From the IMG/VR virus record IMGVR_UViG_3300030101_003780, positions 3,015-27,689 of that record: a DNA stretch of 24,675 bases; one strand, given 5' to 3'. Both the position numbers and the translations under genes were made by a program. The stretch is from a virus. The notes below the pieces were generated by a model. It searched no databases. It was not told the DNA's origin and saw nothing but the letters and a program-made list of their open reading frames with translations. Shown here piece after piece: positions 3,127 through 21,013 of the stretch (its first letter is position 1; every line of letters begins with the position of its first letter).

Positions 3127-4477
3127 TAGCCTTCAGCAGTTGCATCCCTGCAACCTTGCTCATCTCCTCCTGAGTCATGTCAAGATATTTCAGGAACGCT
3201 CCCTCACTATTGTGACCAGTCAATGACATGAGTGCACCATTGGACAGGATGCCTCTCTTGTAGATGTTTGTTGCAAAGGTTCTCCTTGCAGTGTGATTGG
3301 ACACTAATTCATGCAAGGGCACACGTTGAATCTTTCCCCCATCAGACATCTTGGTTGAGACCTTGTCAATCTTCCTGTCCAGTCCTGCAATCTTGCATGC
3401 CTCTTTGATCTTTGTGTTCATCTGTTGTTCTGCACTCACCTCAGGGATGTTCCCTTTCCACTTGGTGATCACCTGACACAGTTCAGGGAGCACTGGGAGT
3501 GTGACTTGGGTCTTGGTCTTTGACTGAGTGAATGTCAGGAACTCAGGACACTTGTCTCCTGATTGCTTCCATGCATCCCTGATGATCTCAGGCATCCTTT
3601 TGAGGTCAGAGATCCTCACCCCTGTCCAACAGGCAATGATAAAGTGATCCCTGCATTTGGTCAGAGCAGTCTTCTCTCCTCCATACTTCCCACGCCCTGA
3701 GAAGTCATGTCTCCACAGGATCTCCAATTCATCCTCTGTGAGTGTTGGTTTCCTGACCTTGATCTCCTTTGGGATAAATGCTTTTGTTTGGAAGGATTTA
3801 TTCTCATGGACGTTCCTCAGATATGACTCTTTCATCCATGTCTTCAGGACCGCCTGATCTTTTGCAATGGTGTTCACACCCAATCCCTGATCACCTCTGA
3901 ACTTCTTGAAGGCTTCAAGGAACTTTGCATCCACATCTTCAAACCTGATCTCCCTTCCCCACACCTTGACCGCAAATGTGTCCAGTTGATCCTTCACTGT
4001 CCTGTATTTCTGAACCGTTCTCTCATTGATGGGAAGTCCCATCTGATTGGTCCTCTTTCCTTCCTCAGTCTCTTGGATGAACTCCTTGACCCATTGATTG
4101 AAAGTCAGGGATGCCTCAGAGATTCCTTCCTTCCTTGATTGCATCCTGTTGACTGCATCCTTGAAGGACAGGGGTGTGATCTCAACACCCTGCACTGTCA
4201 TCAATGCAAAGATCTTGCTGACGTTGTTTGTGAAGTCAGTGAGTTGATCCTGCAACCCAACACAGATTGGATTGATTGGTCTCACTTTTTGTTTCTTCGA
4301 GTCCCATGCTTTGGTGGGAACACTGATCCCTGTTGAGATCTTGACTCTCTTTTTGTCAATGAAGGTGTGCAACTGGACTGCAGATGTCTCTTTGGATGGT
4401 GAGTGAAGGTGGAGTTTGAAGTTCATCAGAGTGTGGGGGACGTTTTGGGGGACGTTTTGGGATGTTTTTAAAACCAC
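3104..4477 (-). CDS. int: Tyrosine recombinase / phage integrase
   Basis: This enzyme catalyses site-specific integration and excision of the phage. In the 457-residue frame the N-terminal part (about 18-75) looks like an arm-DNA-binding domain of the type common in Bacteroidota integrases, residues 120-225 are the SAM-like core-binding domain, and 240-440 the catalytic domain. Catalytic residues are visible: R288 in TGVRIS, a lysine in QSKTKTQ (about 320-322), H395 and R398 in HTARRT, H422 in TGH, and the nucleophile Y431 in LKYLDM. The longest frame begins at GTG 4477, but ATG 4426 (MNFKLHLH) is a credible start: the 17 extra residues are mostly encoded by the tandem repeat at 4435-4470. 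The gene lies directly beside the attP-like region, as expected. Confidence 0.95.
   Translation of the reverse strand: MVLKTSQNVPQNVPHTLMNFKLHLHSPSKETSAVQLHTFIDKKRVKISTGISVPTKAWDSKKQKVRPINPICVGLQDQLTDFTNNVSKIFALMTVQGVEITPLSFKDAVNRMQSRKEGISEASLTFNQWVKEFIQETEEGKRTNQMGLPINERTVQKYRTVKDQLDTFAVKVWGREIRFEDVDAKFLEAFKKFRGDQGLGVNTIAKDQAVLKTWMKESYLRNVHENKSFQTKAFIPKEIKVRKPTLTEDELEILWRHDFSGRGKYGGEKTALTKCRDHFIIACWTGVRISDLKRMPEIIRDAWKQSGDKCPEFLTFTQSKTKTQVTLPVLPELCQVITKWKGNIPEVSAEQQMNTKIKEACKIAGLDRKIDKVSTKMSDGGKIQRVPLHELVSNHTARRTFATNIYKRGILSNGALMSLTGHNSEGAFLKYLDMTQEEMSKVAGMQLLKAINQDRNS
4435..4470. repeat. Tandem 12-base repeats, left arm of attP (putative integrase arm sites)
   Basis: Two exact copies of GGGGGACGTTTT lie head to tail (4435-4446, 4447-4458) followed by a degenerate third (GGGATGTTTTTA, 4459-4470). 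Related copies in the same orientation occur about 200 bases away at 4666-4689, on the other side of the tRNA-like core. Paired clusters of short direct repeats on both sides of a core are characteristic of integrase arm-type sites. They overlap the 5' end of the long integrase frame. Confidence 0.7.
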
Positions 4478-4548
4478 ACAAGGTGCAATCCTTTCCTTCT
4501 TTTTCCAAATTCTGCATCATAATTCACAGTGTTCATGGGGGATTGCAC

Positions 4549-4583
4549 AAAAAAACCCCCGTGAATGCTGAGATCCACGGAGG
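4549..4583 (-). terminator. Intrinsic terminator next to the tRNA-like remnant
   Basis: On the minus strand an 8-bp GC-rich stem (CCTCCGTG pairing with CACGGGGG, one G-T pair, 12-base loop) is followed by seven T. It lies just downstream of the tRNA-like 3' end on the same strand and upstream of the integrase, so it cannot serve a phage gene reading into it within this window. The likely explanation is that it was copied from the host together with the tRNA 3' end, so that integration restores both. It would also insulate integrase from read-through. Confidence 0.75.
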
Positions 4584-4587
4584 TTGA

Positions 4588-4640
4588 CTTGTAGCCCGTA
4601 GGGGAATCGAAACCCACTCCTGAACCACCTGACTTCATTG
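4588..4640 (-). other. Putative attP core derived from a host tRNA 3' end
   Basis: Read on the minus strand, 4591-4612 gives TTTCGATTCCCCTACGGGCT plus AC, which looks like a T-loop (TTCGATT), the 3' half of a T-stem and a 7-base acceptor strand ending in a discriminator A, without CCA. The 5' half of the T-stem (GTGGG) no longer pairs well and no 5' half of a tRNA is present, so this is a fragment rather than a gene. It sits next to the integrase and between two groups of arm-like repeats. I cannot name the tRNA. The exact crossover point is unknown. Confidence 0.65.
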
Positions 4641-4665
4641 ACAATTCACACATTGTTCACACCTT

Positions 4666-4689
4666 GGGGGACGTTTCAGGGGACGTTGA
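4666..4689. repeat. Tandem repeats, right arm of attP (putative integrase arm sites)
   Basis: GGGGGACGTTTC (4666-4677) is followed at a 12-base period by AGGGGACGTTGA (4678-4689). Both match the GGGGGACGTTTT repeats at 4435-4458 in the same orientation. The group ends only three bases before the palindrome at 4693-4705, so integrase binding here could affect the promoter-like element of the holin operon. Confidence 0.7.
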
Positions 4690-4692
4690 ATC

Positions 4693-4705
4693 TTGACAGT
4701 GTCAA
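4693..4705 (+). promoter_or_regulatory. Palindromic regulatory site 1, upstream of the holin operon
   Basis: TTGACAGTGTCAA is a 5-3-5 palindrome within the longer shared string CTTGACAGTGTCAACC, found identically upstream of the portal gene and of the gene before the tail tube gene. Here it points toward the holin gene and lies 38 bases before its ATG. It contains a TTGACA-like -35 hexamer but I see no good -10 at normal spacing, so an activator- or repressor-binding site, or a phage-specific promoter, is likely. Confidence 0.7.
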
Positions 4706-7430: not shown

Positions 7431-7443
7431 TTGACGTTGTCAA
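7431..7443 (-). promoter_or_regulatory. Palindromic regulatory site 4, upstream of the lysis genes
   Basis: TTGACGTTGTCAA (plus strand) is a fourth example of the TTGAC-NNN-GTCAA palindrome. It differs from the other three in the spacer and lies closer to its gene (17 bases before ATG 7413 on the minus strand). It occupies the 33-base gap between the tail hub gene and the lysis genes, one of the few gaps in this part of the late block. Confidence 0.55.
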
Positions 7444-15005: not shown

Positions 15006-15018
15006 TTGACACTGTCAA
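15006..15018 (-). promoter_or_regulatory. Palindromic regulatory site 2, upstream of the tail tube block
   Basis: On the minus strand CTTGACAGTGTCAACC is identical to the elements before the holin and portal genes. The centre lies in the 52-base gap after the tail terminator stop, and the element ends exactly 35 bases before ATG 14970. The following leader also matches the portal leader (22 of 35 aligned bases, without gaps), including AATTTTG near the start codon. Confidence 0.75.
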
Positions 15019-21000: not shown

Positions 21001-21013
21001 TTGACACTGTCAA
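21001..21013 (-). promoter_or_regulatory. Palindromic regulatory site 3, upstream of the portal/capsid block
   Basis: The minus strand reads AACTTGACAGTGTCAACC, identical over 18 bases to the element at site 2, with the same 35-base distance to the start codon (ATG 20965). It overlaps the stop codon of the small gene before it. Its location before the portal-protease-capsid block suggests it controls head gene expression independently of read-through from the terminase genes. Confidence 0.75.

Follow-up and report, generated by a model that had tools for sequence, protein, structure and literature searches.

In attachment sites of the lambda type, such as those of lambda and mycobacteriophage L5, a core is flanked on either side by arm-type sites, and the integrase carries a small N-terminal arm domain. 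The Bacteroides integrases IntDOT and NBU1 IntN1 are built from arm, SAM-like core-binding, and catalytic domains, and NBU1 uses the end of a tRNA. In the Islander tRNA-targeting islands and prophages, attP contains a tRNA 3' fragment; integration restores the tRNA, and the displaced fragment is found at the far end (PMC4383910). In the KplE1 prophage, whose intS gene is located at argW, the sites for the integrase fall partly within its own promoter or right next to it, which leads to negative autoregulation (PMC2951348).

We analyzed a 24,675 bp stretch of DNA (the window) that is part of a 27,689 bp virus record. It is the genome of a temperate phage, with genes for a holin-like protein, a metallophosphoesterase, a portal, a major head protein, and a large terminase (Pfam, PHROG). 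Its att region has the holin gene on one side and a tyrosine integrase gene on the other. We are almost certain of the reading taken as a whole, in which positions 4435–4689 are an attP, the integrase would join CCCCTACGGGCTAC to the 3' end of a host tRNA-Glu(UUC), and the phage is a temperate tailed phage of presumably marine Flavobacteriales.

The locus resembles the lambda and L5 sites in its flanking arm-type sites and in the N-terminal arm domain of its integrase, and its arm sites are tandem direct repeats as in L5. It differs from them in that the arms are 12 bp head-to-tail arrays in one orientation with two and three copies, that the core is a tRNA-Glu end, and that, among near-identical relatives, the arm unit is switched jointly with the arm domain. 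Like the Islander elements, the window attP carries a tRNA 3' fragment; relative to them, the host lineage and the tRNA-Glu site have been worked out here, and a terminator is added behind the tRNA end. As at KplE1, tRNA and integrase follow one another in the same direction; the window differs in having a Bacteroidota-type promoter position, with an arm array just past the promoter and before the ATG, and in that repression is a prediction. The attP is thus typical of the tRNA-directed type, to which a site, a host family, and relatives are now added; what is new is that arm repeats and arm domain co-vary on a constant core.

Features of the attP and its integrase, in window coordinates
Feature	Positions	Strand	Sequence or remark
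Tyrosine integrase, 440 aa	3104..4426	-	ATG 4426-4424; start from alignment with the G001 integrase
Arm repeat, integrase side (P')	4435..4446	+	GGGGGACGTTTT, exact; minus strand AAAACGTCCCCC
Arm repeat, integrase side (P')	4447..4458	+	GGGGGACGTTTT, exact
Third arm repeat, degenerate, shortened	4459..4468	+	GGGATGTTTT
Probable integrase promoter position	4478..4508	-	TTG-N20-CACCTTGT, aligned with relatives
Intrinsic terminator, immediately behind tRNA end	4548..4585	-	hairpin stem 4585-4554, then T run
att core, 14 bp	4591..4604	-	CCCCTACGGGCTAC; common to the window phage, all relatives, and host tRNA-Glu
tRNA-Glu(UUC) 3' end, 21 nt, T-loop to acceptor end	4591..4611	-	TTCGATTCCCCTACGGGCTAC
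Arm repeat, far side (P)	4666..4677	+	GGGGGACGTTTC
Arm repeat, far side (P)	4678..4689	+	AGGGGACGTTGA
13-bp dyad adjoining P repeats	4693..4705		TTGACAGTGTCAA; one of 4 such sites in the window

An earlier sequence-only reading of this DNA had described two exact and one degenerate repeat on the left and two variants on the right, with a 12-base period and with an intrinsic terminator between the arrays, and we found all of these elements where it had placed them. All arm repeats on both sides share one orientation and a 12-base spacing, and the four occurrences of GGGGACGT in the entire window all fall in the att region. The best local match between the left and right arrays scores 17, a value reached by none of 2000 shuffles (maximum 14). 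The terminator hairpin (-21.5 kcal/mol, z = -5.5) is strong for its composition. A tRNA remnant is also present, but the extent that had been given to it (4549-4612) was wrong, as only 4591-4611 is tRNA. In keeping with a remnant of only 21 nt, ARAGORN called no tRNA in the window and Rfam returned nothing real at the att locus. The T-stem base before TTCGATT is the last of GGGT in the window versus GGGG in host tRNAs, a difference that lies outside the 14 bp core.

The sequence-only reading had proposed that the tRNA 3' end be sought in bacterial genomes. Among the 156 matches to TYRAWTCCCCTACGGGCTAC listed for genome contigs, which are mostly from Bacteroidota, 149 are tRNA-Glu (139 with anticodon UUC and 10 with CUC); in viral contigs, 68 of the 71 matches listed are whole tRNA-Glu genes, and the remaining three include the attP of a related phage, G001. 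The tRNA is a Bacteroidota tRNA-Glu(UUC). On the phage side, the cores of four relatives (G502, L299, L302, and L298) read GTAGCCC, TTAGCCC, or TTGGCCC, then CCTAC, then GGGCTAC, which makes a complete or nearly complete 7-5-7 dyad, and their identity to the tRNA starts at CCCC. This starting point makes the 14 bp CCCCTACGGGCTAC the minimal shared core, and the crossover is placed within it, at the border between the T-stem and the acceptor stem. The core dyad may be the core-type site of the integrase. When a host tRNA and the window attP were joined in silico, ARAGORN called an intact tRNA-Glu in the resulting attL, and called none in attP or attR alone.

In many Flavobacteriia and Sphingobacteriia, tRNA-Glu lies in tandem or right before the start of an rpsT-like gene (L078, L083, L138, and similar loci). 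We considered that integration might cut this gene off from its promoter, and dropped the idea because the host family mostly has a terminator behind tRNA-Glu. G001 also has, in the outer part of its P region (L003, 5709-5740), the sequence GATTCCCATCAGGACTCGAACCCCTCC, which resembles another tRNA T-arm, oriented the opposite way.

The integrase matches Arm-DNA-bind_5 (PF17293), Phage_int_SAM_5 (PF13102), and Phage_integrase (PF00589; score 24.4, below the cut-off of 27.1), and belongs to phrog_1. It shares the three-domain Bacteroidota architecture of IntDOT and IntN1, a likeness at the level of architecture. Residues R271, H378, R381, H405, and Y414, which we take to be the catalytic residues, are invariant across four members. 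The best matches among annotated phages are less than 30% identical, and no profile match was found among solved structures. In the frame used by the sequence-only reading, which opens mechanically at GTG 4477, the left repeats overlapped the 5' end of the coding sequence; alignment with G001 places the start at ATG 4426, so that the overlap disappears and the left array lies in the integrase leader, separated from the start codon by 8 bp.

No annotated phage matches the attP of the window at the DNA level, and an exact 30-mer spanning the tRNA end was not found in viral contigs. A terminase search returned one near-identical fragment (L205, 99%), which by synteny is expected to stop before the att region. 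The related phage G001 (IMGVR_UViG_3300025890_000012) has ends that are identical over 59 bp, so that its genome is closed, at about 26.1 kb; it shares the layout of the window and is 70–80% identical to it at the DNA level, in blocks over most of its length. The window also encodes, at 379-768, a small phage protein with a DnaA C-terminal DNA-binding domain (PF08299).

Integrated relatives place this type of element at tRNA-Glu. A 9.2 kb contig (L034, IMGVR_UViG_3300025876_001441), whose integrase is 44% identical to that of the window, runs from a host promoter through tRNA-Glu, terminator, arm repeats, and integrase into phage genes as far as the terminase. An integrase profile search of the Flavobacteriales family that contains G003 gave strong matches in four genomes: in G502, G505, and G448 the integrase starts 177–187 bp behind the tRNA-Glu core (the core-to-ATG distance in the window is 164 bp), and in G506, where tRNA and integrase are on separate contigs, the element is probably also integrated at tRNA-Glu. 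In a 399-genome sample of the order, all hits with an E value of 1e-60 or better were in genomes that also belong to this family. Over the stretch that runs from the core up to the first arm repeat, G448 and the G001 attP share 83% identity. The sequence-only reading had called the locus an attP and had suggested looking for related prophages at the tRNA; prophages and islands related to the window phage are indeed integrated exactly at Bacteroidota tRNA-Glu(UUC), and ARAGORN finds the tRNA intact in L034, G448, G502, and G505. All integrated cases are relatives, and no integrated copy of the window phage itself was found; the closest, G448, has a partial integrase that is 72% identical to that of the window within the covered part of the core-binding domain. 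Three further free attPs (L298, L299, and L302) repeat the design, so that the layout is conserved in five free attPs. This conservation, the integrated relatives at tRNA-Glu, and the shuffle tests leave a negligible probability that the locus merely combines, by chance or through decay, simple repeats with a fragment resembling a tRNA and plays no part in integration. Nothing was found in favor of this reading, which the integrated relatives already refute.

The far junction of an integrated element, with its displaced core copy, was seen in relatives only. The contigs of the G448 and L034 prophages end before any such junction. On contig C8 of G502, extra core copies lie at 71840 and 79109, and in front of each stand P-arm repeats that resemble the ones ahead of the integrase (identical to them over 23 bp at 71840); a decayed attR-type junction at 83667 shares 89% identity with G001 across 61 bp. 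These copies and the decayed junction indicate that elements stack at tRNA-Glu. Within 67840-83680 of this contig (L277), several elements are stacked behind a single tRNA-Glu, with a core copy at the boundary of each. Their cargo looks bacterial and not phage-derived, with proteins resembling, for example, photolyases and amine oxidases; integrases of this clade seem to mobilize islands other than phages as well. An empty-site pair for G502 was sought by tblastn with genes downstream of empty tRNA-Glu sites, and none was obtained.

Integrase relatives in G302 and G451 were rejected as members because they fall in a different clade. The corresponding prophages (G302:C1, 661551-676125, and G451:C24) pair a related terminase with a distant integrase; in G302 this integrase follows tRNA-Arg(UCU) and is preceded by short tandem repeats of its own, which shows that related phages use another tRNA target.

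The arm unit differs between relatives. Read towards the integrase in the integrase-side copies, it is AAAACGTCCCCC in the window, AAAATGGCCCAC in G001, A(A/T)(A/T)(A/T)TGGACCCC in G448, ATTTTGGCCCCC in L034, ACGACCCACATC in L299 and L302, AACGACACACGA in L298, and, as a two-unit block, GGCACAACAATGGGAACAACAAA in G502 and G505. Only the integrase-side array is visible in L034 and G448; in all six elements in which both sides can be read (the window, G001, L298, L299, L302, and G502), the same unit flanks the core on both sides. A matrix of P against P' arms is strongest on the diagonal, with each P arm best matching the P' arm of its own or of a near-identical phage, and each of the observed matches was reached by 0 of 2000 shuffles. 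The nearest cross-match is that of the G001 P arm with the L034 P' arm (14, versus 15 for its own), and the units of these two phages are similar.

Both arms co-vary with the arm domain. L299 and L302 have arm domains that are 99% identical and share an identical unit. L034 and L302 are 98% identical in their catalytic domains but 55% identical in their arm domains, and their units differ. Likewise, G001 and G448 are 97–99% identical over residues 71-181 and 64% identical in their arm domains, again with different units. In these comparisons the arm unit tracks the N-terminal arm domain of the integrase and not the remainder of the enzyme. Synonymous divergence between G001 and G448 jumps in the arm domain (dS 0.91 versus 0.17), which points to module exchange rather than point selection. 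The sequence-only reading had taken the 12-base unit for the arm site, and covariation with the arm domain suggests that it behaves as one.

A 13-mer dyad, TTGACNNNGTCAA, recurs in the window at 4693-4705, 7431-7443, 15006-15018, and 21001-21013, each time between genes, and G001 has it at the four equivalent places (852, 3790, 11514, and 16603). With four occurrences in the whole record against 0.15 expected under a Markov model, these dyads look like dispersed prophage repressor operators. One of them is 3 bp from the right array, so other regulators probably bind nearby, and the left array, in the integrase leader, is where a repressor would act. The 12 bp repeats could on these grounds be operators of a separate repressor or excisionase beside a real att core, but we regard this as improbable, given that the repeat tracks the N-terminal domain in the three pairs compared above and that one unit flanks both sides of the core in every readable element. 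Arm sites for the integrase are the reading that we retain.

A hairpin with a T run stands right behind the core in every attP and integrated element that we examined from the clade, and its sequence varies between groups of relatives. The sequence-only reading had the terminator captured from the host together with the tRNA end. In L299, L302, and L034, the terminator is nearly identical to one behind tRNA-Glu in hosts in which no element was found there: those of L302 and L034 are almost exactly those of G500, G501, and G003, loci where no integrase was found. For L034, comparisons with these loci score 77–91 (shuffle maximum 25), and the similarity stops just past the T run. The tRNA of L034 is from another host group (GTTCGTCCAGGGG), whose native terminators differ, and the terminator therefore moves with the phage. 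Capture from a host thus seems probable in the L299/L302/L034 group. It is nonetheless quite conceivable, if somewhat short of an even chance, that the terminators evolved in the phages and that their likeness to host terminators reflects scars of decayed elements. Among 275 sequences that follow tRNA-Glu, none clearly matches the terminator of the window (best score 30, shuffle maximum 26) or that of G001, so that the proposed capture is supported in the relatives and lacks a source for the window among these sequences, and in G513 a decayed element left its terminator in the host; the matches of L302 and L034 to loci where no integrase was found argue for capture.

The consensus TTG-N20-TAnnTTT(G) is a Bacteroidota-type promoter. 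It occurs 93–94 bp after the core in six relatives (G001, G448, L034, L298, L299, and L302); in the window the 20-base spacing is kept and the -7 box is poor. Because the arm array lies between the promoter position and the ATG, repression by bound integrase is likely from the layout. In E. coli, integrase genes that follow a tRNA in the same direction are negatively autoregulated (PMC2951348), and by analogy autorepression, which the sequence-only reading had raised, is plausible for the window integrase, which is co-directional with its tRNA.

The mechanism that we propose would proceed as follows. The integrase would recombine the 14 bp core of the phage with the identical sequence in which the host tRNA-Glu(UUC) gene ends; its N-terminal domain would bind both tandem 12 bp arrays, and its catalytic domain would cut within the core. 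The 5' part of the host tRNA would be joined to the 3' copy from the phage, so that the tRNA is rebuilt. The phage terminator, now behind the rebuilt tRNA, would end tRNA transcription and shield the co-directional integrase gene, and integrase bound to the array just downstream of the promoter position would probably repress its own gene.

More tentatively, and with considerable doubt on our part, phages that compete for a single tRNA-Glu site may diversify a private arm code, in which arm domain and 12 bp repeats are swapped together as one module and the core, the terminator, and the catalytic domain are left unchanged; elements stacked at one tRNA would thereby avoid mutual excision. The analysis assigns a host site, tRNA-Glu in a Flavobacteriales family, to an uncultured phage group known from metagenomes alone. 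Nearly identical integrases that differ jointly in arm domain and repeat are a natural experiment on arm-site reading, and with them both arm-site specificity and any avoidance of cross-excision through it by prophages that share one attB become directly testable.
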